In this document: one piece after another, positions 6,974 through 19,352 of the stretch
Layout: each line of letters starts with the position of its first letter
Position numbering within the stretch: position 1 is the first letter of the stretch
Translations under genes and position numbers: made by a program
The notes under the pieces: generated by a model
The model's database searches: none
What the model was told of the DNA's origin: nothing
Seen by the model: the letters and a program-made list of their open reading frames with translations, nothing else
DNA from: Methylotenera sp.
Lineage (GTDB): Bacteria; Pseudomonadota; Gammaproteobacteria; Burkholderiales; Methylophilaceae
Assembly: GCA_023259635.1 (NCBI GenBank)
Contig: JALRGX010000158.1
Span: forward strand, 1 to 39,338
Direction of reading: 5' to 3'
Length of the DNA: 39,338 bases

Positions 6974-8503
6974 TTATAAGCTGTTGCGCTGCAACAGCTT
7001 ATTCAAGGCATCTGGTGCGCAGGTGTCTATTTGAATGACTTTTTTCTGCTCTGTAGCCGATAAGGCCTGCGCCGTTTTTAGTTGGTGCTCCAGCACGGCT
7101 AATGTCGCTTCGGATGCATCATTGCCGGACTGCTGACGTGTAATGATGCGTCGTTTTAACTCTTGCTCAGGCGCATAAAAGTCCAATATTACAAATTCCA
7201 TCTGTTTGGCTAAGGCCAGTTCTGCAAATAAATCCCGCTGTTCTGATTGCAAGAAGGCGGCGTCTATCACTACGGAAAAGCCGGCATTTAGAATTGAGGA
7301 TGCGAGCTCAACTAGCCTGTGGTAAACCAGCGCGATATTTTTCGGCGTATAGAGCCCTTGATTGACTGCATTACCTACATCTTTTTGTGATTCATCGATA
7401 AGGCGTTTGCGCTCGATATCGGTGCGTAGGTGAATCATTCCCAGCTTCTCTGCCATCTGCATAGTGTAGGTTGACTTGCCGGAACCGGAGTAGCCGTGAG
7501 TAATGAATAGTTTTGGCGGTGTTGGTTTGCTGTAACCCTCGGCCATATTCGCGTAACTTTCAGCTTCTTGCAGATATCGCGCTTCTTTAAACTGTTGCCA
7601 ATGAAACAGGGCTACTTTACAACGTACCAAAGCGCGGTAAACCAGATAATAAGGCAGTAAGGTCAGGCCTTCATAATCACCGCTAAGTCTCAAGTAATGA
7701 TTAAGAAAACGGTAGGCCATGGGTTTTAGGCCTCGCTGCTGTAAATCCATGACTACGAATGCGATTTCGTTAATCACGTCTAACCAGTGCAATTCCGTAT
7801 TAAATTCAATACCATCAAACGGGGTGACTCTGTTATTGATCAGTGCAATATTGCCCAGATGTAAATCGCCATGGCACATACGAATGAAGCCGTTTTGTTT
7901 GCGCTGCGCCATTAATCGGGTATTGTTTGATAATTGCAGTTCGCCCCATTGCTCTAATTGAAGTATCTGTCGGCAAAATCTATCATTTGTGATTAAGGGT
8001 TTAATGTCGGTAAAGTTGCCCCTGAACCAATAATGCGTTTGTTCCGGGCTGCCAAACTTGCTGTCGGACACATCGGTTGCTGCATGTAGGTGGAAATCGG
8101 CAATCAGCACTGCTAATTGATCAATAATGGTGGCACTAAGCTCGCCACGGTCAGCAATGTGGCTTAATAGCAGGTTTCCGTCAAATTGCTTCATTTTCAC
8201 CGCGTATTCAATAGCTTCACCGTTACCGTTAATATGCGGGTCCTGTAACGACCCGGTAACCGGTACAACATCAAGATAAAGATCGGGGGCGAAGCGGCTA
8301 TTAAAACGTAATTCTTCCAGGCAGTAGAAATGCCTTTTTTCGAGCGTGGAAAAATCAAGGAAACTGAACCGGACATTCTTTTTAATCTTATAGGCATATT
8401 GCCCGGTCAACAGAATCCAGGAGATGTGGGTTTCAATCAGTTCAATTTTATCTACAGGATGCGGATAGGCTGCAGGGTTTTGTAGTGCCTGAATTAAACT
8501 CAC
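6974..8503 (-). CDS. Fused aminoglycoside-phosphotransferase-like kinase / P-loop ATPase
   Basis: This 509-residue two-domain protein has an N-terminal half (about 1-315) with an APH/choline-kinase fold. Its catalytic loop is CHGDLHLGNIAL and its metal-binding motif is FDGIEF. The C-terminal half (about 330-500) is a zeta-toxin/AAA-like P-loop kinase with Walker A GYSGSGKST. This architecture is widespread in proteobacteria, usually annotated as bifunctional aminoglycoside phosphotransferase/ATP-binding protein. Its substrate is unknown and antibiotic resistance should not be assumed. The start is GTG at 8503, with AAGG about 9 nt upstream. It begins only 28 nt after hvfC on the same strand, so it may be the last gene of the RiPP operon, though a functional link is unproven. 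Confidence 0.85.
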   Translation of the reverse strand: MSLIQALQNPAAYPHPVDKIELIETHISWILLTGQYAYKIKKNVRFSFLDFSTLEKRHFYCLEELRFNSRFAPDLYLDVVPVTGSLQDPHINGNGEAIEYAVKMKQFDGNLLLSHIADRGELSATIIDQLAVLIADFHLHAATDVSDSKFGSPEQTHYWFRGNFTDIKPLITNDRFCRQILQLEQWGELQLSNNTRLMAQRKQNGFIRMCHGDLHLGNIALINNRVTPFDGIEFNTELHWLDVINEIAFVVMDLQQRGLKPMAYRFLNHYLRLSGDYEGLTLLPYYLVYRALVRCKVALFHWQQFKEARYLQEAESYANMAEGYSKPTPPKLFITHGYSGSGKSTYTMQMAEKLGMIHLRTDIERKRLIDESQKDVGNAVNQGLYTPKNIALVYHRLVELASSILNAGFSVVIDAAFLQSEQRDLFAELALAKQMEFVILDFYAPEQELKRRIITRQQSGNDASEATLAVLEHQLKTAQALSATEQKKVIQIDTCAPDALNKLLQRNSL

Positions 8504-8531
8504 AGTAACAGCCTTTATATATTGATTATTT

Positions 8532-9290
8532 TTAAAGCGTGCCGATAATAACGCGTTTGTCCCTCAGGTCTCCCAGTATGGATAGCCCGAATTCAATAAT
8601 ACTCTCAGGTTGAGGATGTTGTAACTCTTTTGCAACTAGAGTGAGTGCTTGCTTACCGGTAATGGTTTTGTTTTGCAGAAGCGAGATCAGTCTATAGGTG
8701 ATAGCGTTCAACTCGATAAATTTTACATTGTCCCCAGTATCGCGGTAGACCAGAAGCTGGGTGCCCTCCGGTTTTTTCGGTTTGTTACGAGGAGAAATTT
8801 TATGCACCGCATAGTCGTAATTGAGCAGCTGCATCGTCGGTGAGAAAACCGGTTTGCTTTTGCTCAAATCACCATCCGGCTGTATATTTTTCAGATCGGC
8901 GGTTCCAGGGATAGAGGCTACCAATAATTCTATCCACTCGTAGTGACAAAGGCTGGTGAAGTAAGGAGGCAGCAGTTCTTGTAATGTGGGACTGGCCGTG
9001 TCCAAAAACTGTAAAAACTGTTCCGGAATTTTACGGAACAAAGGGTTGTTAGCAGAATAGTCCCGCATAAAGGCCTGATTTAATTTCAGCCATTTACGCT
9101 TGCCCAGCAGTTTGCGTGCAACCGGGAAGCAAGCGGAAACGGATTCAAATAAATTGTTAAATACAATTTCTTCATATACGGCCATGCGCTCATGTGGAAC
9201 GCCTTTCATTACCGGGTTGTTCTGCGGGTCACGCAGGCGGGCGGTAAAGGCCAGTTGATAACGTTGGAAGCTTGGCAGCTCTGTAGTCAT
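8532..9290 (-). CDS. hvfC: HvfC-family RiPP maturation partner (DUF2063)
   Basis: This 252-residue protein has an N-terminal DUF2063 domain (about residues 5-100), marked by the RxxVYxExVFNNLxExxxxxFPVARxLLG pattern (seen here as MAVYEEIVFNNLFES and CFPVARKLLG). The C-terminal part resembles the RRE-like portion of HvfC/BufC proteins. In characterised MNIO systems this protein forms a complex with the DUF692 enzyme and helps bind the precursor peptide. It follows hvfB by 8 nt, which fits translational coupling and a stoichiometric complex. The family assignment is strong because of the hvfA-hvfB-hvfC order; the biochemical role is taken from the family. Confidence 0.9.
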   Translation of the reverse strand: MTTELPSFQRYQLAFTARLRDPQNNPVMKGVPHERMAVYEEIVFNNLFESVSACFPVARKLLGKRKWLKLNQAFMRDYSANNPLFRKIPEQFLQFLDTASPTLQELLPPYFTSLCHYEWIELLVASIPGTADLKNIQPDGDLSKSKPVFSPTMQLLNYDYAVHKISPRNKPKKPEGTQLLVYRDTGDNVKFIELNAITYRLISLLQNKTITGKQALTLVAKELQHPQPESIIEFGLSILGDLRDKRVIIGTL

Positions 9291-9298
9291 GGCCTTGA

Positions 9299-10198
9299 TT
9301 ATCCTGAAGCCTTAGACGCTGATTCAGGCCTTGATGCGAAGTTGGACATGGCCTTGTTCTGGCAGGCAGCAATCCTATTGATCTCATGCATTAATACCGG
9401 GAGTGGCGGTATGTTATTGTCCCGCTCCAATAATGTGGGGAATGTGCCGAATAAGCGGTAGGCATCTTCAAGCAATGCCCACACTGGGTCAATGACATCT
9501 TCACCATGTGTATCCACCAATAAACTGGGTGTTTGCTGGTAATGACCAGCCATATGGCTGTAAATAATGCGGTCACCAGGAATGCTGCGCAGGAATTCAT
9601 GCGGGTCAAAGCCGAAATTGACACTGTTGACGTAAATATTATTGATGTCCAGATGCAGCAGGCAATCAGCCTCGCTGATGACTGCATTAATGAAATCCAA
9701 TTCACTCATTTCCGAGATTGGCGCTGCAACATAGAATGAAGCATTTTCAACGCCGATACGCTGGCCAAGAATATCCTGTGTCTGGCGTATGCGCTGGGCT
9801 ACGTAATGTACGGCTTCCTCGGTAAACGGTATTGGCAGCAGGTCGTAGAGATAGCCGTGCTTGCCTTTGAAGCCATCAGTGCAATAACTGAGATGCTCGG
9901 TATAAACCGGTATCTGGTATTGGTGCAGGAATGTTTTAACCTGCTGCAGGAAAGGCACATTGAGTGGGCTGGGACCTCCCAGCGACAGGCACAAGCCATG
10001 GCAGACGATAGGATAGCGCTCAACAAACCAGTCAAGCTGCTTCACGGATTTTCCGCCGGCATTGATCCAGTTTTCAGGGGCGATTTCTACGAAGCTGATA
10101 TTGGCTAATTGCTCTTGTCCGTAAAGTGATTGAATCTGGGGTATCAGCTCTCGCTTTAGCCCCAGACCGGTACCTTGTATCTGGCTGGTGATTGCCAT
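9299..10198 (-). CDS. hvfB: HvfB-family multinuclear iron oxidase (MNIO, DUF692)
   Basis: This 299-residue DUF692 TIM-barrel protein has the ligand-bearing segments expected for a multi-iron centre: EIAPENWI, CHGLCLSLGG, YTEHLSYC, GVENASFY, LLHLDINNIYVN, SHMAGHY and VDTHGEDV. MNIO enzymes oxidatively modify cysteines in ribosomally made peptides. For the Haemophilus HvfB-HvfC pair the products are oxazolone/thioamide groups that bind copper, so the same is the leading guess here. It lies 32 nt downstream of the cysteine-repeat precursor hvfA and 8 nt upstream of hvfC. All motif regions look intact. Confidence 0.93.
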   Translation of the reverse strand: MAITSQIQGTGLGLKRELIPQIQSLYGQEQLANISFVEIAPENWINAGGKSVKQLDWFVERYPIVCHGLCLSLGGPSPLNVPFLQQVKTFLHQYQIPVYTEHLSYCTDGFKGKHGYLYDLLPIPFTEEAVHYVAQRIRQTQDILGQRIGVENASFYVAAPISEMSELDFINAVISEADCLLHLDINNIYVNSVNFGFDPHEFLRSIPGDRIIYSHMAGHYQQTPSLLVDTHGEDVIDPVWALLEDAYRLFGTFPTLLERDNNIPPLPVLMHEINRIAACQNKAMSNFASRPESASKASG

Positions 10199-10230
10199 AA
10201 GTGATTTTCCGGAATAACAAAGTGTATTCG

Positions 10231-10623
10231 TTATTTCATTTCACTACTGCATTTACCTTCTTTGGCTTTTTCGGCACTGCATTTTCCCTCGGCTGCTTTA
10301 TCAGCGCTGCATTTACCTTCATGGGCTTTGTCAGCACTGCATTTTCCTTCAACGGTTTTCTCACCGCCGCATTTGCCTTCATGGGCTTTTTCGGCGCTGC
10401 AGTTACCTTCTGCTACTTTTTCAGATTTTTTCATGTTTGCACCGCATTTGCCAGTGCCGCATTTTCCATCCTTCGCTTTGGTTTGGTTATCTGCTACTTG
10501 ATAGCCGCTGGATAGTGACTTTAATGCAAATGGATTTTCTGCTGCATTGACAGTGCTTGCTGCGATAGAAAGTGCAAATGCGCCGCCGATAGCGAGTGAG
10601 ATGGTTTTTTGTGTCTTGTTCAT
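10231..10623 (-). CDS. hvfA: HvfA-like Cys-repeat RiPP precursor, probable copper-binding peptide
   Basis: This 130-residue precursor has a Sec signal peptide (hydrophobic 8-26, likely cleavage after VNA before AENPF), the conserved NPFALKSLSSGYQVAD segment, then a Lys/Glu/Ala-rich tail. The tail holds eight cysteines, all within variants of E-G-K-C-G/S: DGKCG, TGKCG, EGNCS, EGKCG and four EGKCS. In HvfA-type systems HvfB/HvfC modify the Cys of EGKCG repeats into copper-chelating groups before export through Sec. Here only one of eight sites is the exact EGKCG. There is no cysteine outside the repeats. The ribosome binding site AAGGA is good. The gene lies 60 nt after the anti-sigma gene and 32 nt before hvfB. 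Product chemistry is inferred from the family. Confidence 0.88.
   Translation of the reverse strand: MNKTQKTISLAIGGAFALSIAASTVNAAENPFALKSLSSGYQVADNQTKAKDGKCGTGKCGANMKKSEKVAEGNCSAEKAHEGKCGGEKTVEGKCSADKAHEGKCSADKAAEGKCSAEKAKEGKCSSEMK
10261..10410. repeat. Five 30-bp tandem repeats encoding EGKC decapeptides of HvfA
   Basis: Five imperfect 30-bp units (10261, 10291, 10321, 10351, 10381) encode ten-residue periods starting E-G-K/N-C. A partial unit sits at 10246-10260. The units differ at third positions and in residues 6-10, so the array is old rather than a fresh amplification, but copy number could still vary between strains. Confidence 0.9.
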
Positions 10624-10683
10624 TTTAGATTCCTTGAATAAATATTAAAAAATAATGTGGTTCTCATTAAACAGTTTCGGCAC

Positions 10684-10932
10684 TTACTGATTGGACTCAA
10701 CCGCATGCAAAATCCTGTTTTTTACTTCTAACGGGAGTTTTATAGTGCTGTCGTGTTCTATACTATTTCTGATCCGCTGCAAGGCAGTGCGCAACATAAA
10801 TAGTTGACGCTTAAACTGGCTGCATGGATTGCATATAAAAAGATGCAGTTTTAACAGCAATCTTTCTGACCACGTCAATGGACGGTCTAAAGATTGTGAA
10901 AGGAGTTGGCTGGCTTGTTTACAGGTGAGCAT
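10684..10932 (-). CDS. Short zinc-binding anti-sigma factor
   Basis: This 82-residue protein carries a zf-HC2/ZAS-like signature: an early Cys (Cys4, MLTCKQASQLLS) and H-x3-C-x2-C (HLFICNPC, His30, Cys34, Cys37). There is no transmembrane segment, so it should be a cytoplasmic anti-sigma factor like the MseR/ChrR-ZAS type, rather than a membrane-anchored one. Zinc-type anti-sigma factors often release their sigma factor on thiol oxidation or metal stress. It starts 14 nt after the ECF sigma gene, the usual arrangement for a cognate pair. A comparable sigma/MseR pair lies near DUF692 genes in Neisseria (from memory). Confidence 0.8.
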   Translation of the reverse strand: MLTCKQASQLLSQSLDRPLTWSERLLLKLHLFICNPCSQFKRQLFMLRTALQRIRNSIEHDSTIKLPLEVKNRILHAVESNQ

Positions 10933-10946
10933 AATATTTCACTTAC

Positions 10947-11501
10947 CTAAATCCAATTTAACTCTAAACATTTTCTCAATCCCATCCGGGCTCTATATAA
11001 CATTACCCAGGCATTGGTCGCAGTGATATCAAGTTCCTTACAAATATTTTCATTTTCGAGCTCATGCACATCGCGCAGCATGAAAATTGCTTTTAATTTT
11101 TTAGGTAATTTGCTCAGGCATTCATCCAATACAGCGAGAAACTGTTTTTGTTCCAGTGAATTATCCGGTATATCCATGGCCTGAGGTTTATCCAGCCAGT
11201 GACCGGACTTGTCAAAAAAGTCATCCATGCTAAGTTCTGATGCATCCAGGTCTATGAAGTCGGAAACTGGTTGTTCGCGTAATTGTTTGCGCTGTAAGTC
11301 GATTATTTTATGTTTAAGAATGCCAGTAAGCCAGGTTCTGGCTGACGATTCACCTTCAAAGCTGTTGTTTTTAATGGCAGCCAGCATTGTCTCCTGCATG
11401 GCGTCTTCTGCAAGATGAGGGTCTTTTAATCTTGCCAGGGCAAAGCGATACAGGTAATCGCCATGTGCATTGAGCCAGTCATTGATATTTTTATTTGCCA
11501 T
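10947..11501 (-). CDS. ECF-family RNA polymerase sigma factor
   Basis: This 184-residue sigma-70 family protein has only regions 2 and 4. Region 2 (about residues 12-85) shows the core-binding DPHLAEDAMQETMLAAI and the -10 recognition segment ending in TWLTGILKHKIIDLQR. An acidic linker (about 88-125) leads to region 4 (about 130-180), with the helix-turn-helix LPKKLKAIFMLRDVHELENENIC and CKELDITATNAWVMLYRAR. It is followed at 14 nt by its probable anti-sigma gene and then hvfABC, which are the likely targets. Its ATG overlaps the DUF1841 stop (TAATG), so translation is probably coupled. I cannot identify its promoter sequence. Confidence 0.93.
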   Translation of the reverse strand: MANKNINDWLNAHGDYLYRFALARLKDPHLAEDAMQETMLAAIKNNSFEGESSARTWLTGILKHKIIDLQRKQLREQPVSDFIDLDASELSMDDFFDKSGHWLDKPQAMDIPDNSLEQKQFLAVLDECLSKLPKKLKAIFMLRDVHELENENICKELDITATNAWVMLYRARMGLRKCLELNWI

Positions 11502-11941
11502 TATGCTTTTGCGGCTCGTTCATTCAGCAGTTCAAGGTAGTGGGCGGAATCTAAAGGCACATTGTTATGCTGGGAATGCCAGATGGTTTCCGCCAGGCAT
11601 TCCAGCAAGTCATGCTGTGCGAGGTGTTTGTCGCCATGCTTTTCGAGTAATGTAGCATAAACTTTACTGATGCCGATAGGCTGGTTGATGCTAACCTGCT
11701 CAATCACCGAGAGGTGCAGGCTGATATGCAGGAATGGGTTGGTTTCTCCCATTTCAGGAAAATACTGTTGCTGCATGTAGCGTTCCGGTACGTTTAATAT
11801 TGCATGATATTCCGGATGCATCTGGATGACTTCAACCGCAATTTTCTCCAGATCCGTCAGCACGGCGTGTTGTTTGAATTTGGCCCATGCATCAAATAGA
11901 AATTGGCGTGCCTGATCGCGGCTAGGATTGTATAAGCTCAT
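11501..11941 (-). CDS. DUF1841 protein
   Basis: This 146-residue protein matches DUF1841 by its N-terminus (MSLYNPSRDQARQFLFDAW) and the central ETNPFLHISLHLSVIEQ segment with conserved His residues, followed by HGDKHLAQHDLLECLAE. The many conserved His/Asp/Glu suggest metal binding, but no function is established. It lies 23 nt after the FIST gene, and its TAA overlaps the ATG of the sigma factor gene by one base. Confidence 0.85.
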   Translation of the reverse strand: MSLYNPSRDQARQFLFDAWAKFKQHAVLTDLEKIAVEVIQMHPEYHAILNVPERYMQQQYFPEMGETNPFLHISLHLSVIEQVSINQPIGISKVYATLLEKHGDKHLAQHDLLECLAETIWHSQHNNVPLDSAHYLELLNERAAKA

Positions 11942-11964
11942 GTTGTGTATTGAATACGGGTTAT

Positions 11965-13047
11965 TTATATTGCTGAAAATAAGGAAAGTACTGCCGAATA
12001 AGGCAGTAGCTGATTGCTGCCGTTAATGTAGGTAATTTCACCGTTGCCGTAAAAACCTAATAATGGCATGTTAGGAAAAGTTTGTGTGATGACTTTTAAA
12101 TCACGGTCAACACCATTGTAAAAGTATGGCCCTCTTCCAAGACAGGAAAACATGAGTCCAAAATCTGGCATACATCCGAGTTGTTCGGTTAGGCGGTGTG
12201 TCATTATTGTAATATCCGCTTCAGCTGCGCTTGGGGTGCGTAATGACCAGCTCAGAAATTGGCCGGGTCTGAGTGGCTGTGCCAAGGTGATGCTGCCATT
12301 ATCTTCATCACAGCTAATGATTGTGGTTTGATTGAAATTACCTTGCATGACTGCTTCTGCACTGTCGGCATATAAAACCGTTACTAAGTGCAATGGTACA
12401 TCGGTATCACTTTTACTGTAGGATCTCCATGCTTTTTGTAGTGCGCCTAACGGGGCTTGGTCATTGATTTGCATCAGGTCGAACAGGCGGGTCAGATGAA
12501 TCTGCTGAGGTTGTGTCAGTAACTGCACGCCATGTGAAGTGCCCGTAGCAACGTTTGTGCCTGAGAAAAAAGCTTCTACATGCCCAGAGACATCGCCCCT
12601 GGCATTTTGCCACACTGAAAATGGGCCTTGCCCGATCGCGTCACCAGATACTCCCCCATAACGTTGATCGCCATTATTTAACCAGGTGCTATTGATGGCA
12701 TTCGGCGCTGTGAGTGTCAGTAATGCTTGGTTGTTGATGTTCTTTCTGGGTAATTCCAGTGTGACATTGTCACCAAATACCATCACAGCCGCAGCTGGTG
12801 CATCCAGCACCCAGTCCTCCTCAGTAAAAATTCCTGTCGTGGAGCAACCCATTACCTGTGTACAATTTGCGGCTTTTGCCGCTGTTTTAATAGCGGCTTG
12901 TGGGTTATCGGCAAATTCTGAGGTCAGTAAAAGCAGTACGCTGTTTGCAATGCTGATGTCAGCTTTACGCATGGCATTGGCCACAGCTTCACTCACTAAA
13001 TCTGGAGAAGGTTGACTGCCTAATACGATACTGCTTGCAACTTTCAT
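11965..13047 (-). CDS. FIST domain sensory protein
   Basis: This 360-residue soluble protein consists only of FIST_N (about 30-200) and FIST_C (about 215-340) domains. Marker segments are VMGCSTTGIF near residue 90, and GCMPDFGLMFSCLGRGPYF plus LLGFYGNGEI near the C-terminus. FIST domains are ligand-sensing modules, proposed to bind small molecules such as amino acids; here no output domain is fused. It starts 2 nt after nth and precedes the DUF1841/sigma genes. A role in signalling to nearby regulators is possible but unsupported beyond position. Confidence 0.88.
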   Translation of the reverse strand: MKVASSIVLGSQPSPDLVSEAVANAMRKADISIANSVLLLLTSEFADNPQAAIKTAAKAANCTQVMGCSTTGIFTEEDWVLDAPAAAVMVFGDNVTLELPRKNINNQALLTLTAPNAINSTWLNNGDQRYGGVSGDAIGQGPFSVWQNARGDVSGHVEAFFSGTNVATGTSHGVQLLTQPQQIHLTRLFDLMQINDQAPLGALQKAWRSYSKSDTDVPLHLVTVLYADSAEAVMQGNFNQTTIISCDEDNGSITLAQPLRPGQFLSWSLRTPSAAEADITIMTHRLTEQLGCMPDFGLMFSCLGRGPYFYNGVDRDLKVITQTFPNMPLLGFYGNGEITYINGSNQLLPYSAVLSLFSAI

Positions 13048-13049
13048 TT

Positions 13050-13712
13050 TTAATTCCGCGGCGCTTGGTCCGGTATTAGGTTGAATTCTTTCGCCTTATA
13101 CTCGCACAGGTCTGCAATGCAGCATTGGCCGCATTTTGGTTTGCGTGCAGTACAGGTATAGCGGCCATGCAGGATTAACAGGTGATGTGCATCTTTTATA
13201 AATTCTTTTGGAATTGTTTTAAGGTATTTCTTTTCAACCTCGAGTACGGTTTTACCGGGTGCAAGATTAATCCGGTTACCTAATCTGAATAAATGTGTAT
13301 CCACGGCTATTGTCGGTTCGCCAAAGGCTGTATTCAGAATAACATTGGCTGTTTTACGGCCAACGCCAGGCAGGGCCTCCAGTGCGGCACGGCTGTCCGG
13401 TACCTGCGATTGATGCGCAGTGATTAGTTTCTGGCAGGTAGCAAGTATATTTTTTGCTTTAGAGTGATATAAACCAATTGATTTGATATAGCTTTCCAGG
13501 CCGTGCAGCCCGAGCGCAAGAATAGTTTCTGGAGTGTTGGCAACAGTGAACAGTTGTTCAGTGGCGATGTTAACGCCCTTATCTGTAGCCTGTGCCGACA
13601 GAATCACTGCGATCAATAACTCAAAAGTACTGCTGTGCCTGAGTTCTGTCGTCGGATTGGGGATAGCAATGCTTAAGCGTTTGAAAATCTCTAAGCGTTG
13701 CTGGGCGTTCAT
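13050..13712 (-). CDS. nth: Endonuclease III
   Basis: This 220-residue bifunctional DNA glycosylase/AP lyase removes oxidised pyrimidines in base excision repair. The helix-hairpin-helix LPGVGRKTANVIL holds the catalytic Lys, VDTHLFRLGNR the catalytic Asp, and the C-terminal [4Fe-4S] ligands show the C-x6-C-x2-C-x5-C pattern (CTARKPKCGQCCIADLC). It follows rnfE by 27 nt. The rnf/rsx-nth order is the same as in Escherichia coli, which supports orthology. Length is normal. Confidence 0.97.
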   Translation of the reverse strand: MNAQQRLEIFKRLSIAIPNPTTELRHSSTFELLIAVILSAQATDKGVNIATEQLFTVANTPETILALGLHGLESYIKSIGLYHSKAKNILATCQKLITAHQSQVPDSRAALEALPGVGRKTANVILNTAFGEPTIAVDTHLFRLGNRINLAPGKTVLEVEKKYLKTIPKEFIKDAHHLLILHGRYTCTARKPKCGQCCIADLCEYKAKEFNLIPDQAPRN

Positions 13713-13739
13713 GAATCAACGGTCGTCCTGCACACTTGA

Positions 13740-14423
13740 TCAGTGATTAAGTGCTGGTTTAAGGTTGCTTTGCGGCATGTCTGTTTTTTTGCTATTCCTG
13801 ACCTCGGCCCAGTTGCGTAACGCAATCAGTGCGCCCAAGCCTAAAAACGCGCCCGGAGGTAGTACGGCAAACAAAAAGCCATGGTAATCGGGAATGACGG
13901 TCAGTACGATATTTTTGGCTGCGGGCCCAAATACCAGATCCATGCCGGAGAATAATGTACCCTTGCCTACTACTTCACGGATACCGCCTAGAAAACCTAA
14001 TACCAATGTTAATCCCAGTCCCATCATGAAGCCATCCAGCACCGATGGTGCAAAAGTATTTTTAGCCGCAAAAGATTCAACGCGCGCCAATACAATACAA
14101 TTTACGACAATGAGTGGAATAAAAATGCCTAATACTTTATGCAGGGGATGGGCAAACGCGTTGATGGACATATCAATAATGCTTACCAGCGCCGCGATGA
14201 CGAGAATAAATACCGGAACACGAATTTCGCTGGGCACAAGTTTACGCACCGGTGAAATGGTGCCGTTTGATGCGGCCATTACCAGGGCGGTAGCCAGGCC
14301 CAGACTGATGCCGTTTACCGCAGTTGTCGTGACGGCAAGCGTAGGGCAGAGTCCCAGTAACTGCACAACACCGGGATTCTGCTTCCATAGTCCATTAACA
14401 GTAATTTCTTTGTAGATACTCAT
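13740..14423 (-). CDS. rnfE: Rnf electron transport complex subunit E
   Basis: This 227-residue integral membrane protein belongs to the RnfA/RnfE/NqrD-E family, with about six membrane helices. It starts MSIYKEITVNGLWKQNPGVVQLLGLCPTLAV, whose NPGVVQLLGLCP is characteristic of RnfE/NqrD. RnfA and RnfE are homologous inverted-topology partners that hold a shared metal centre in the membrane. The C-terminal polar tail is slightly long. It starts 8 nt after rnfG and precedes nth. Confidence 0.96.
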   Translation of the reverse strand: MSIYKEITVNGLWKQNPGVVQLLGLCPTLAVTTTAVNGISLGLATALVMAASNGTISPVRKLVPSEIRVPVFILVIAALVSIIDMSINAFAHPLHKVLGIFIPLIVVNCIVLARVESFAAKNTFAPSVLDGFMMGLGLTLVLGFLGGIREVVGKGTLFSGMDLVFGPAAKNIVLTVIPDYHGFLFAVLPPGAFLGLGALIALRNWAEVRNSKKTDMPQSNLKPALNH

Positions 14424-14431
14424 GCTTAATC

Positions 14432-15142
14432 CTAATGTCCGGACTCATGTGCTGATTCGGACAGATGTTCTGATTTTTGTTCCAGTGTATGCTGGTTTTG
14501 CGCATAAAACTGTAATGTTTTTGCTACCGCTTTTACAACTGCACGCGGCGTAATTGTTGCACCGACCATATAATCAAATTTGCCGCCGTCTTTTTTGACT
14601 TTCCACTGTTCGGCCGGTGTTTTTTCGACAGATTCATTATCAAATAGTTTTATCCAGTTACCGCGCGTGATATCGATATAATCGCCCAGTCCTGGAGTCT
14701 CTTTGTATGCAAGTACACGCACACCACTTATCGTGCCGTCTGCGCGGATCGCAATCAGCAGTTTAATGTCACCGCCGTATCCGTCATGTGCAATCGCTTC
14801 CAGTATGACGCCTGCAAATTTATGATCAAGTTTCGCAATGTAGGCTTTACTTGGGGTTTTGTTGCCGAGCAGTGCGTTAGGTTCGATTTCAATTACATTA
14901 TTTAATATATTGTTATCCTGATCATCCGGATGTTTTTTATCGTGCTGGTGTTTGGCATCGCCATAGTAACGCTCATCCGGAAGTATCTGTTTAAATAAAG
15001 CCAGCCGTGCCTCGGCTTCATTTTTTTCGATAGGTTCGCGTGTAATGTTGAATATATAAGCAAGCAGTGCCGTGCCGATCAAGGCAAAAGCTACCATGGT
15101 AGCAGCAGTGACAGAAGTGTGTTTTACAATTGTATCTGACAT
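14432..15142 (-). CDS. rnfG: Rnf electron transport complex subunit G (FMN-binding)
   Basis: RnfG has one N-terminal membrane helix and a periplasmic FMN-binding domain. The covalent FMN attachment motif is seen as VGATITPRAV, with Thr in the S/V-G-A-T-x-T pattern; the segment YKETPGLGDYID is also typical. I place the start at the ATG at 15142 (MSDTIVKHTSVTAATMVAF, 236 residues). The in-frame ATG at 15196 would overlap rnfD by 47 nt and add 18 residues not expected in the family. With my start, 7 nt separate it from rnfD. The segment around residues 65-80 (KHQHDKKHPDDQDNN) is an unusually polar, His/Asp-rich insertion. Confidence 0.95.
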   Translation of the reverse strand: MSDTIVKHTSVTAATMVAFALIGTALLAYIFNITREPIEKNEAEARLALFKQILPDERYYGDAKHQHDKKHPDDQDNNILNNVIEIEPNALLGNKTPSKAYIAKLDHKFAGVILEAIAHDGYGGDIKLLIAIRADGTISGVRVLAYKETPGLGDYIDITRGNWIKLFDNESVEKTPAEQWKVKKDGGKFDYMVGATITPRAVVKAVAKTLQFYAQNQHTLEQKSEHLSESAHESGH

Positions 15143-15149
15143 GGTCGGC

Positions 15150-16172
15150 CTAATCTTTCGGGTGACCAAAAACACGGGGCTGGGTGTGCGCATCAATCAG
15201 CGGCACGCACATATTCATCAGCAGTACGGCAAAAGCTACGCCATCCGGGTAACCGCCATAAGTGCGGATTAGATAGGTAAGGACGGCAGCGCCCGCCGCA
15301 AAGTAGAGTTTACCGCGTGGAGTAGTAGGACCACTTACCGGATCGGTAATGATAAAGAAAGCACAGAGCATGGAGGCGCCACTCATCAGGTGGAATAGCG
15401 GGTCGGCAAAATGAGCCGGGTTTACTGCGTAAAATGCCAACGATATTGCTGCCAGTGCACCTAAGAATGCAGTAGGCAAGTGCCAGCTGATGATGCGTTG
15501 TTGAATCAGGTATAGGCCGCCAAGCAGGTAGGCTGCAGTCACAAATTCGCCGCCTTTGGCACCAAATATGCCAAAAATCGGTGCCTGCATGATGGCAGTA
15601 ATCTCATGCTTGAGCATAAGCTGTGTTTTTAAGTAATCAAGCGGTGTCGCCGAAGTGACCGCATCTATTTTTATCCCAGCCGGTAGTGTGTTGCTGAAAA
15701 TGAAGTGCAGTTGATCCATGAAGCTGAGCTTGGTTTGCGCCAAGATCAACGGTGCAGGCCATTTGGTCATGATGAGCGGGAATGAAATCAGCAATACCGC
15801 ATAACCTACCATGGCTGGGTTGAATGGATTGTAACCAAGTCCACCGTATAGCTGCTTGGCAATTACGATAGCGAAGAATGTGCCAACAACCACTAACCAC
15901 CAGGGAGCCAGTGGTGGGAGTGCCAGCGCCAGTATCCATGCGGTAACCACTGCGCTTAGATCAGACAGGTAGGGACGAATCGGGCGTTGGCGGATTTTAA
16001 GTAAAGCAGCTTCGGCGGCTAATGCAGTGGTGGTCGCCAGGGATATGGTGACCAGAATGCCGCCGCCATAGATCCATGCGTAGGCAAAAATGCCAGGCAC
16101 AAGCGCCAGCAGCACTTTGAGCATGATGCTGCTGACAGCAGGGGCGTTAGTAATATAAGGTGAACGGTTCAA
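15150..16172 (-). CDS. rnfD: Rnf electron transport complex subunit D
   Basis: This 340-residue membrane protein has about nine to ten helices and belongs to the RnfD/NqrB family. The covalent FMN site is seen as AVTSATPLDYLK, where Thr of the SAT motif carries the flavin. GLGYNPFNPAMVGYAVLLISFP is another family hallmark. Translation begins at TTG (16170-16172), supported by CGGGA about 7 nt upstream and by the family-typical N-terminus NRSPYITNAPAVS; no nearby ATG would keep it. It lies 40 nt after rnfC. Confidence 0.96.
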   Translation of the reverse strand: MNRSPYITNAPAVSSIMLKVLLALVPGIFAYAWIYGGGILVTISLATTTALAAEAALLKIRQRPIRPYLSDLSAVVTAWILALALPPLAPWWLVVVGTFFAIVIAKQLYGGLGYNPFNPAMVGYAVLLISFPLIMTKWPAPLILAQTKLSFMDQLHFIFSNTLPAGIKIDAVTSATPLDYLKTQLMLKHEITAIMQAPIFGIFGAKGGEFVTAAYLLGGLYLIQQRIISWHLPTAFLGALAAISLAFYAVNPAHFADPLFHLMSGASMLCAFFIITDPVSGPTTPRGKLYFAAGAAVLTYLIRTYGGYPDGVAFAVLLMNMCVPLIDAHTQPRVFGHPKD

Positions 16173-16212
16173 GTTTTATCCCGGTAACAAGTGTTGTTAT
16201 TGGCTCTAAAAT

Positions 16213-18168
16213 TTAATCTTCTGAATCCGATGCTTTCGCTTTGCCTGTTTGCAAGGCTTTTTCACGGATAGCATCTATTTCGTTAATCTCGGCTTGTACC
16301 GCAGGGCTCGCATCTTCGACATTTTTTGGGCTAATGCCTGCCTGGGCTGCTGCCAGTTTCTGTGCTTTTGCACGTTCGATCGCTGCGGCAATCAGCGCCT
16401 GCTTGTCTTTTTTAGCCTGTTCGGCCTTGGCTTGCGCATCTTGGTCTGCTTCAGCCGGTGCGGTTTCGCTGCTTGTGTGGGCTGTACTAGTAGTCTCAGT
16501 TTCTGTTTTTTCCGGTGTATCATCTGCTTGCGCGGCGGCGGCTTTTAAAGCTTTTGCACGCTCAATGGCTGCAGCAATCGCGGCTTTTTTGGCATCATCT
16601 GTAGTTGCGGCGGCAGCTGGTTTATCTGTTTCTGTTTTTGCCGGTGCGGTTTTGGCCTCTCCTGCTTTTGTGGCTTCAGCTTTGCCGCTGGCAGCGCGCT
16701 CGGCATGTTTCTGTGCGCGCTCCAGTTTCTCTCGTTCAATTCGCGCCAGCCTGAATTCATTGCGCTCACGTGCAAGGTCAGCGGCTTCCTTGGCTTTGTC
16801 TGCAGCGATAATTTCACTTTTCGCATAACGGTAATATTGCACCAGCGGAATGTTGCTAGGGCATACATAAGAGCAGCAGCCGCATTCGATACAGTCAAAC
16901 AGCTTGTAATCATACGCCTTTTCAAAATTATCTGATTTTGAAAACCAGTAAAGTTCCTGTGGCTGCAGGTTTACCGGGCAGGCATCGGCACAGCGGGCGC
17001 AGCGGATGCATGGCATTGCCGGCGGTGGCGGTGCAAACAGGTCAGGTGTTGCTGCAATAATGCAGTTTGCAGCTTTAGTGACCGGTACGTTAATGGTGGG
17101 TAGATCAAACCCCATCATAGGTCCACCCATAATAAAATGCGTAGTCCCTGATTTTGCACCGCCTGCCGCATCGATTAATGTTTGTAGCGGCGTGCCAAAT
17201 AGCACTTCAAAATTTTGTGGCGAGTTCACGCTGCCTGTCATGGTGACAATACGGCTAGTAGCCGGTTCGCCAAAAGTAAAATAGCGATAAATCGCCAGTA
17301 CTGTGGCAATGTTAAATACCTGTACCCCGACATCGGTTGAGCGTCTGTCATGTGGGATCTCAATGCCAAGCACTAAATGAATCAGGCGGCGTGCATCGCC
17401 GCTGGGGTAAAGTGTAGGCACTACTTTGACAGTAGTATTCGTTAAAGCTTTGCAGGCCGCGGTCATGGCGATGGTGGCTTCTGGCTTATTGTCTTCAATG
17501 CCGACAATACAATGTTCTGCTCCCAGCAGGAATTTTACGATTTCCATGCCTTTAACAATTTCATCCGCACGTTCGCGTATCAGCATGTCGTCGCAGGTAA
17601 TGTAAGGCTCACATTCTGCCGCGTTAATGACCAAGGTATGAATGTGTGATTTTCCATCGGCGCGTACTTTAATCTGGGTCGGAAAAGTGGCGCCGCCCAT
17701 GCCTACAATGCCGGAAGAACGTAAACTCGCAATTAATGTATTTTTGTCGGTGTTGCGCCAATCTGTAGTTTGTAATGGTATCCATTCATCTTTACCGTCA
17801 GGCGTTAAGGTGACGCACATATCTGGCAAGCCGGATGGGTGCGGGATAACTTGTTCGCTGATGGCGGTGATCGTGCCGGAAGTTGGTGCGTGTATGGCAG
17901 CCGATACAGTGCCTTCAGCTTCTGCCAGCATTTGCCCTTTCAGTACGCGGTCTCCAACCTGTACTTTTACTTTCGGGATATGCCCTACATGCTGGCGTAG
18001 AGGCAGAACCAGTTTTTCTGGAATAGAAAGTTTGGTAATGGGGCGCGTTGTGGATTCCTGCTTATGACCGTCCGGGTGAACGCCGCCATGGAATTTATAG
18101 ATATCAGCAGTTTCGCCGGTTTGGCCACGGACCAGTTTGCTGGCAAATTGAATGATTGAATTCATCAT
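16213..18168 (-). CDS. rnfC: Rnf electron transport complex subunit C with long Ala/Lys tail
   Basis: This 651-residue peripheral subunit probably takes electrons from or gives them to NADH through FMN. An N-terminal barrel-sandwich domain (about 25-110) precedes the NADH/FMN-binding region ([15 protein letters not shown] and [14 protein letters not shown]) and a SLBB-like segment. Two [4Fe-4S] clusters follow: [15 protein letters not shown] and [14 protein letters not shown]. The last 200 residues are a low-complexity Ala/Lys/Glu tail with two degenerate copies of [19 protein letters not shown], a feature common in proteobacterial RnfC/RsxC. Its start overlaps the rnfB stop by four bases (ATGA). 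A long open frame on the opposite strand across the tail is an artefact of this composition. Confidence 0.96.
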
Positions 18169-18737
18169 GAGGCATGCCCCTCATCTGCAGGCACGGCTTT
18201 GATCGGGATCACAGGATACTTCCACTTCCAGTTGTCAGGCGTTTCAGCAATAGGGTGCATGGTAATGCAATCTACCGGACAGGGCGCCACGCACAATTCG
18301 CAACCGGTACATTCGGAAGCAATAATGGTGTGCATGTGTTTTGCTGCCCCAAGAATGGCATCTACCGGACAGGCTTGTATGCATAGCGTGCAACCTATAC
18401 AGATATTTTCATCAATAAATGCGACAGATTTTGGTTTTGGCAAGCCGTGCTCGGCATTGAGAGGCTTGTATTCCACCCCCATCAGGTCAGCCAGTGCGCG
18501 CGCGCCGGCATCACCGCCAGGCGGGCATTGGTTAATGTCTGCCTCCCCTTTGGCAATAGCTATTGCGTAAGGTTTGCAGCCAGGATAACCGCATTGTCCG
18601 CATTGTGTTTGTGGCAGGATCGCATCGATGCGAGCTACTAGCGGATCTCCCTCCACTTTGAATAGTAGCGCGGAGATGCCGAGCATAATCCCGAGCAGCA
18701 GGGCCAAGCCAAGCATAATATAGAGGGCGGTTAACAT
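18165..18737 (-). CDS. rnfB: Rnf electron transport complex subunit B (ferredoxin-like)
   Basis: This 190-residue protein has one N-terminal membrane helix (about 5-27), an Fe-S domain with [13 protein letters not shown] and a downstream CPPGG cysteine, then two [4Fe-4S] ferredoxin motifs, [16 protein letters not shown] and [16 protein letters not shown]. RnfB is the soluble-side electron carrier that exchanges electrons with ferredoxin. It is 21 nt after rnfA and overlaps rnfC by ATGA. Confidence 0.97.
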
Positions 18738-18758
18738 ATCACTAAAGTTGTTTAAAAG

Positions 18759-19352
18759 CTAATATTTATCAAGCCCGGCAAAGCCCATGAACGCCAGGCT
18801 CATGAGGGAGGCGGTAACCATTGCAATTGCAGAACCTTTAAATGCTACCGGGACGTCAGCGGCCTCCAGTCTTTCGCGCATGGATGCAAATAAAATCAAT
18901 ACCATTGAAAAGCCAACAGCACCACCCATGCCAAATAGCAATGATTCCAGGAAGCTATGGCTGGATTGTGCGTTGAGCAGCGGAATGCCTAATACTGCAC
19001 AATTGGTGGTGATGAGCGGTAAAAATATACCTAATGCCTGATGGAGTGGCGGGAAATTCTTTTCCATGACCATTTCGGTAAATTGCACAACACCGGCAAT
19101 GATTACAATAAAAGACAGTGTGCGCAGGTATTCCAGGCCGTTAGGTTCGAGCAGGTAATGATTGATTCCCCAGCTGGTCATGGAGCCGATACTTAGTACA
19201 AACGCAGTGGCGCCCGCCATCCCGATAGAGGCTTCCAGTTTTTTGGAAACTCCCATGAATGGGCACAGTCCAAGAATTTTTACCAGCACGATGTTATTTA
19301 CAAGTACCGTGCCAAGTAAAATCATGATGTAGTGATGCAAATCAAAAGTCAT
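18759..19352 (-). CDS. rnfA: Rnf electron transport complex subunit A
   Basis: This 197-residue membrane protein has six predicted helices. It starts [36 protein letters not shown], the conserved RnfA N-terminus; LGLCPF contains the Cys thought to bind the membrane metal centre with its RnfE counterpart. It is the first gene of the rnfABCDGE-nth run and divergent from dapA across a 206-nt region. The Shine-Dalgarno is weak. Confidence 0.96.

Follow-up and report, generated by a model that had tools for sequence, protein, structure and literature searches.

Peptides of the hvf (EGKCG) type carry 5-thiooxazoles (PMC13097082; PMC13419390), and copper binding together with 5-thiooxazoles has been shown for EGKCG relatives (PMC13097082). 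Their clusters have been described as a precursor, a maturase of the multinuclear non-heme iron-dependent oxidative enzymes (MNIO), a DUF2063 protein and DoxX (PMC12452194). In Neisseria, NMB2140-2145 constitute one operon under its own sigma factor, and its transcripts were clear only upon overexpression of the sigma factor or deletion of MseR (PMC2893595). The gonococcal neighbourhood comprises an extracytoplasmic function (ECF) sigma factor, DUF2063 and DUF692 proteins, a periplasmic protein and DoxX (PMC2954202). The gonococcal peptide (NGO1943-1948, gonophorin) has EGKCG repeats (PMC13097082), and NGO1943-1948 and NMB2140-2145 probably correspond gene by gene. SigF of Caulobacter controls two DUF692 clusters (PMC3511200), and a sigma factor with NrsF has been reported for Buf1, not Buf2, clusters (PMC12452194). 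We analysed a related locus in a stretch of 39,338 nucleotides from Methylotenera sp. of the Methylophilaceae (assembly GCA_023259635.1, contig JALRGX010000158.1, positions 1 to 39,338; the window), the assembly being of 2.2 Mb in 159 contigs and 92% complete. Five open reading frames (ORFs) on the minus strand, in one order, encode a sigma factor, an anti-sigma factor, a precursor (HvfA), an MNIO maturase (HvfB) and its DUF2063 partner (HvfC), with gaps of 14, 60, 32 and 8 nt. With a probability that we put at about 0.68, this is an operon of the captophorin/oxazolin type for a copper-binding ribosomally synthesised and post-translationally modified peptide (RiPP), and the sigma/anti-sigma pair acts on it as a modulator over basal transcription.

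The sigma factor and the hvf genes are closely linked in related bacteria. Among 100 genomes of the family, taken to be Methylophilaceae from the names of close relatives and including drafts of modest completeness, some match to the sigma factor was found in 99 and an intact orthologue of at least 59% identity in 49 by count of the listed matches, and PF05114 matches of every kind were found in 66. In 45 of the 49 relatives with an intact sigma gene, spread across 14 genera, hvfB lies just downstream of it; the four exceptions are G001, G083, G026 and, where a contig edge cuts the locus, G061. The 58 loci that were classed, window included, divide into 46 with intact sigma and hvfB, 4 with intact sigma and no hvfB, 3 with broken sigma and 5 with hvfB and no sigma match in the stretch, three more loci, whose sigma is of a distant type, having been left out. 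Matches to the anti-sigma factor and to hvfC are present in all 46 of the first class. The linkage extends to other families of the order, where 12 of the 27 loci read have hvfB after sigma (1.5-kb downstream flank; one at 37% identity).

Ten hvf-bearing relatives are nevertheless without a working sigma factor. In five of them (G024, G067, G094, G076 and G082) sigma is absent and the space between the upstream DUF1841 gene and hvfB suffices only for hvfA; G070 retains only short remnants of the sigma and anti-sigma genes, as read by eye; and in G077, G007, G089 and G042 stops or frame changes interrupt sigma. Neither the five genomes lacking it nor G070 yielded another close sigma (best E values 3e-4 to 4e-8). 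All ten have an unbroken hvfB gene (in G082 truncated at the contig end), and the three decayed loci that were read whole have unbroken hvfC matches. In G042 there are stops in sigma and one in the anti-sigma gene, and hvfB is on a different contig. Assembly error as the cause of the losses was considered and is thought unlikely: in G077, G089 and G007 the genes nth, DUF1841, hvfB and hvfC are without stops or frame changes, and sigma lies in at least two frames with stops. In G077 the neighbouring FIST gene is also broken and the anti-sigma gene is split; in G089 little of FIST remains. All the sigma-less genomes are drafts, of which single cases may be wrong (completeness 48% for G070, 81% for G094 and G082, 87% for G089, 90% for G042 and G007, and 92% for the remainder).

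The maximum-likelihood tree of HvfB (68 rows, with sigma-bearing outgroups) requires seven changes of the sigma label, all forced by well-supported branches, with a 5-95% range of 7-7 over 200 bootstrap trees. The label is somewhat clustered on the tree, since shuffled labels gave a mean of 9.5 changes and 2 of 500 shuffles were as low. This count by itself does not separate gain from loss; loss rather than gain is suggested because the outgroups bear sigma and because remnants remain. The tree was made without G039 (contig edge), L085, L086, L097, L109, L112 and L113 (no HvfB) and L111 (below 45% identity), and with L120, L265 (short) and L116, labelled sigma-less. L120 has one stop in its matched stretch in one reading, and the match of that genome has none in another. 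The ratio of nonsynonymous to synonymous divergence (dN/dS) of hvfB was 0.058-0.073 in comparisons of the three sigma-less genomes L118, L119 and L120. Pairing a sigma-decayed with a sigma-bearing genome gave 0.069 and 0.073, and two pairs in which both genomes bear sigma gave 0.064 and 0.071, dS being saturated in a third such pair. The ratios are rough, most dS values being above 1, and values for broken sigma genes and saturated values were not used. They indicate that hvfB remains under purifying selection. Fewer sigma factors in pelagic Methylophilaceae are already known (PMC6794327), and our literature search found no published report of this loss of sigma from the hvf locus. The apparent repeated loss of the pair from loci that keep the peptide genes makes it probable that the switch has an auxiliary role, not a governing one.

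The hvfB gene (9299-10198, minus strand) encodes a DUF692 enzyme of 299 aa, which matches PF05114 (MbnB_TglH_ChrH) at 3e-99 and is the sole PF05114 match in the assembly. HvfB passes the curated model NF003818 (393 bits, cut-off 360) and is under the cut-off of the BufB model (262 bits, cut-off 310). It aligns to the solved structure 3BWW (3e-73) and retains the DINN and DTHGE stretches; counted along 3BWW, and assuming the same numbering for HvfB, N175 falls in the NN of DINN and D242 and H244 in DTHGE. Alanine variants at N175, D242 and H244 of the H. influenzae enzyme are inactive (PMC13419390). The partner gene hvfC (8532-9290, minus strand, 252 aa) combines DUF2063 (PF09836, 1e-21) with a RiPP recognition element (RRE) domain (PF22106, NGO1945_C, 2e-27), passes the curated model NF050145 (250 bits, cut-off 142) and aligns to the solved structure 3DEE (3.7e-15). 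Two components of captophorin and oxazolin clusters, an HvfB-type MNIO and a PME1 partner of DUF2063 and RRE domain, are present. The precursor gene hvfA (10231-10623, minus strand) encodes 130 aa with 8 Cys and passes the loose repeat model NF050137 (KCGExKCG_twice; 33 bits against 19.5). A Pfam search of the precursor gave no matches, hence no DUF2282, and without DUF2282 and with HvfB under the BufB cut-off the locus does not qualify as a bufferin cluster of Buf1 or Buf2 type. The sequence-only reading had named these five genes with their order, strand and gaps, all borne out by ORF coordinates and domain matches, and had rightly called the cluster an hvfABC-type MNIO RiPP cluster, HvfB and HvfC both exceeding the curated hvf cut-offs. 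Its account of HvfB and HvfC installing copper-binding groups on HvfA needs updating to 5-thiooxazole for the chemistry (PMC13097082, PMC13419390).

The ECF sigma gene (10947-11501, minus strand, 184 aa) matches Sigma70_r2 (6e-14) and Sigma70_r4_2 (6e-12) and passes TIGR02943 with 194 bits (cut-off 162); the closest named relatives, at 83% identity, are from Methylotenera assemblies. Its dN/dS against the nearest relative was 0.027, the lowest of the five genes tested, a rough value at a dS of 1.9, and it indicates strong constraint on the sigma factor in the lineage of the window. The small anti-sigma factor (10684-10932, minus strand, 82 aa; zf-HC2, 5e-8) is of the zinc-associated (ZAS) type, passes the antisigmaE model NF052368 (72 bits, cut-off 50) and has zinc-ligand residues, each verified, at C4, H30, C34 and C37 (C-X25-H-X3-C-X2-C), as in the MseR/HrsE type. 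By script, the same spacing was found in 49 of the 50 anti-sigma factors adjoining intact sigma factors, window included; the motif of L107, which failed the script, seems present by eye in the DNA. Among 80 named relatives of the sigma factor, on contigs some of which end early, a ZAS anti-sigma factor was found by script in 62 and an MNIO within 3 kb downstream in only 37, two Methylococcales bins included, and the sigma family is thus wider than the RiPP. A second sigma/anti-sigma type, of 46-48% identity, occurs in a few family members. In one (L112, G014:C1) it is followed by a gene that is DoxX-like by eye, and in another (L111, G021:C2) a cluster of a Cys-containing precursor and an MNIO, bufferin-like by eye, lies about 7 kb downstream.

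Upstream of sigma is a DUF1841 gene (11501..11941, minus strand; PF08897, 1.7e-55), the stop codon of which overlaps the sigma start (TAATG); this junction, AAAGCATAATGGC, had been overlooked in the sequence-only reading. A FIST gene (11965-13047) follows after a 23-nt gap and, after a further 2 nt, a gene that we take to be nth-like (13050-13712). With the overlap and these close neighbours, sigma is not obviously the first gene of its own transcription unit. The arrangement recurs: DUF1841 precedes sigma by no more than 150 nt in 34 of the 45 sigma and hvfB loci that have DUF1841 in the fetched stretch. Further upstream, at 13740-19352, are genes that presumably belong to an Rnf-like electron-transport cluster; they are on the same strand, heading toward nth, FIST, DUF1841, sigma and hvfABC. 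An Rfam scan of the window gave no matches.

In the mechanism that we propose, HvfA would be made with a Sec signal and its leader gripped by the RRE of HvfC, while HvfB, with its iron cofactor, would oxidise the cysteines of the Lys-Cys core to 5-thiooxazoles; the exported peptide would bind and buffer Cu(I) in the periplasm. The zinc-cysteine anti-sigma factor would be disarmed by thiol oxidation or by metal, upon which the MseR-type sigma factor would raise expression of the co-directional genes, and autoregulation of the sigma/hvf unit is probable. Basal transcription may arise by read-through from DUF1841 and the genes upstream of it, or from a local promoter. A pair that modulates over basal transcription could be lost without loss of the peptide. 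Copper binding, thiooxazoles and induction are here carried over, by analogy, from relatives (PMC13097082, PMC2893595, PMC7907618).

Several observations weigh against this interpretation. The cluster has no DoxX gene (HvfX/GigT), the two DoxX matches (PF07681) of the assembly both being on contigs other than that of the window, and MsrB, a regulon partner in Neisseria and Haemophilus, has no match in the 92%-complete assembly. HvfA is below the strict equivalog model NF050188 (39 bits against 95), and its 8 Cys include only 3 in a KC[G/A] context. In Haemophilus exposed to hypochlorous acid, all four genes of the DoxX cluster (DoxX/DUF2063/COG3220) were strongly dependent on RpoE2, and without RpoE2 they showed no significant induction (PMC7907618), which points to more control by sigma than a modulator would have. 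This result, from another species and another gene arrangement, supports sigma control generally and would weigh somewhat against a mere modulator. Finally, none of four approaches (dyad counts, a two-block search, the Neisseria consensus and spacer alignment) yielded an acceptable sigma-dependent promoter.

In the dyad counts, the best pair before hvfA, TTGA-N13-TAAA, was present in 9 of 45 non-redundant stretches (shuffle maxima 4-8) and the best before sigma in 11 of 39 (shuffle maxima 4-5). The two-block search, with 40 restarts for the real data and 10 for shuffles, scored 109.5 before sigma (shuffles 37-44) and 78.3 before hvfA (shuffles 32-37). As candidate promoters these motifs were rejected, and by position and letters we attribute them to conservation at the 3' ends of the DUF1841 and anti-sigma genes. 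The Neisseria-type consensus GTMAGBWTT-N12/13-CGTCTAAH was not enriched in the 200 nt before sigma of 49 loci (mean best score 11.57 against 11.59 for shuffled sequence), where another consensus is possible, and scored 13 in the window stretch from nth to hvfB (shuffles 12-14). The spacer between the anti-sigma gene and hvfA aligned poorly in the ten nearest genomes except for the ribosome-binding site, and a generic scan of 8300-14500 found 8 promoter-like and 11 terminator-like sites, against 11.1 and 6.7 expected. A sigma-dependent promoter could sit inside DUF1841 or further upstream. The motif RTGNTTSAAT precedes sigma in 25 of 56 loci (L071, L076 and L098 are examples), always 5-8 nt before the ATG, and in none of ten loci of the window genus; possible readings are a tiny leader ORF or, for a leaderless sigma transcript, a -10-like element. 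Across 13 genomes, TGMTTSAAT at this distance from an ATG was counted 5-28 times per genome (reversed pattern 0-9), and given this frequency no regulon is claimed. An RpoE-like GGAAC-N-GTC pair is found before hvfA in 3 of 8 sigma-less stretches, counted without the sigma-less loci L264 and L116. It is in none of the 44 sigma-bearing stretches, or in one of them when the pattern is loosened, and the chance expectation is about 0.002 per stretch. Its carriers, L118, L119 and L265, are three close relatives of the sigma-less genus g20, and the pattern was picked after they had been seen. None of three further genome-wide matches that were read stood before a recognisable rpoE, and the pair is a weak lead to an RpoE-like promoter in g20.

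The sequence-only reading went further and had the sigma factor direct the operon. The precedent that it invoked, sigma control of DUF692 clusters in Neisseria and Caulobacter, is confirmed (PMC2893595, PMC3511200). For the window locus a dedicated directing sigma factor is partly supported, by gene linkage in 45 of 49 relatives and by the RpoE2 dependence in Haemophilus, against which stand the missing promoter footprint and the ten sigma-less relatives that bear hvf. In its strict form, with sigma as the dedicated master of hvfABC and the operon silent without it, the idea draws further on the Neisseria transcripts, clear only with sigma overexpressed or MseR deleted, and on the four RpoE2-dependent Haemophilus genes. 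We consider it doubtful, because sigma is absent or decayed in ten hvf-bearing genomes, for which the tree needs seven changes, while all ten keep an unbroken hvfB and the three decayed loci read whole keep unbroken hvfC matches, and because no promoter motif was seen before hvfA. Sigma-less relatives may be rewired, and they are for that reason no test of the window itself.

At the other extreme, the pair would mainly serve other genes and be a neighbour of hvfABC by history, hvfABC being transcribed from upstream or from a housekeeping promoter of its own. The one-contig genome G001 (L097) fits this, in that sigma and anti-sigma genes occupy the usual place beside nth, FIST and DUF1841 and the genome has no MNIO match; it is a place to ask what else the sigma factor controls. 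So does G083, with the pair beside a SecA-like gene, no hvfB there and a single MNIO on another contig, and the modest share of named sigma relatives with an MNIO nearby points the same way, as does Cupriavidus, where the adjacent rpoQ is without a shown role in gig, the authors assuming one (PMC10304878). Linkage over 14 genera of the family and beyond it would be odd without a shared role, and the sigma results in Haemophilus and Neisseria also speak against a mere neighbour, which we find unlikely to a similar degree. A copper-uptake system of the methanobactin-like, chalkophore kind, instead of a buffer, is suggested by the shared enzyme superfamily and the methylotrophic host. It is very improbable: HvfB passes its own model, and its 33 bits against the MbnB model TIGR04159 (cut-off 325) do not make it a methanobactin maturase. 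HvfA, with its Sec-like signal and repeats, is moreover unlike methanobactin. Should the favoured reading of sigma as a losable modulator hold, sister genomes with and without the switch, all retaining the operon, would be a natural experiment on the regulation of a widespread copper-binding RiPP.

The precursor differs along its length in conservation. A Sec-type signal peptide (10540..10623, minus strand; residues about 1-28, judged by eye) is followed by the conserved motif NPF...L..GYQVAD (10489..10536, minus strand; residues 30-45), probably the leader bound by the RRE, by a conserved first core pair, DGKCGTGKCG (10441..10470, minus strand; residues 52-61), and by a variable tail (10234..10410, minus strand) of repeats of about ten residues with six Cys, five of them Cys-Ser. 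The Cys sites are DGKCG, TGKCG, EGNCS, EGKCG and four EGKCS. A script located a precursor in the corresponding position in 51 of the 54 hvfB loci, that of the window among them; L091, L104 and L116, without a precursor by script, and L111 are not in these statistics, and in L104 a two-Cys precursor is visible by eye though missed by the script. The leader motif is present in 50 of the 51 and the first-pair pattern in 49, and among the 293 core Cys 139 are in a KC[G/A] context, 94 are followed by Ser and 22 by His. In FonBC, a studied enzyme acting on Lys-Cys substrates, double variants at position five were all blocked except Ala, and one Cys-Tyr substrate was modified once (PMC13097082). The position-five block and the Cys-Ser tail suggest either that HvfB is more tolerant here or that the tail is partly unmodified. 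One may speculate, tentatively and as the less probable case, that the peptide is bipartite, with a fixed first Lys-Cys pair that always becomes thiooxazole and a drifting Cys-Ser/Cys-His tail that stays thiol or is accepted by a broader-ranging HvfB; such a mixed-ligand metal peptide would be new, and its operon would have been freed from sigma seven times on the tree. The drifting Cys contexts are in any case natural substrate variants for the question of which cysteines an MNIO accepts.

Compared with known systems, the window locus resembles that of Neisseria in its ECF sigma factor and ZAS anti-sigma factor, the zinc-ligand positions C4, H30, C34 and C37 being identical in sigmaE/MseR (PMC2893595), and in the pair standing beside DUF2063, DUF692 and a periplasmic protein (PMC2954202). 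In Neisseria, however, the sigma and anti-sigma genes (NMB2144, NMB2145) are at one end after the RiPP genes and DoxX is present, whereas in the window both precede hvfA, DoxX is absent and sigma overlaps DUF1841; the Neisseria consensus is not enriched at loci of the window type, and MsrB has no match in the window assembly. The oxazolin hvf system of H. influenzae shares HvfB, HvfC, an HvfA-like Lys-Cys precursor and a ZAS anti-sigma factor (RpoE2/HrsE) (PMC7907618). There rpoE2 is near msrAB with the hvf genes elsewhere, by locus tags; the cluster of the window is without DoxX and has an HvfA failing NF050188. Fontiphorin (fonABC, captophorin class), the product of which binds Cu, likewise has a Lys-Cys 5-mer core and an MNIO with a PME1 partner (PMC13097082), but its position five is restricted and window HvfA has Ser after five of eight Cys. 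The SigF-NrsF bufferin system of Caulobacter also joins an ECF sigma factor and an anti-sigma factor to DUF692/DUF2063 clusters (PMC3511200), with a six-pass membrane protein (NrsF) and a DUF2282 precursor in contrast to the 82-aa zf-HC2 anti-sigma factor and Lys-Cys repeat precursor of the window. The nearest known systems are thus captophorin/oxazolin clusters with an MseR-type sigma/anti-sigma pair. The combination was known before, since Neisseria already has an EGKCG-type cluster beside an ECF sigma factor and a ZAS anti-sigma factor, and the added interest of the Methylophilaceae loci is in the repeated loss of the switch and the drifting core of the peptide.

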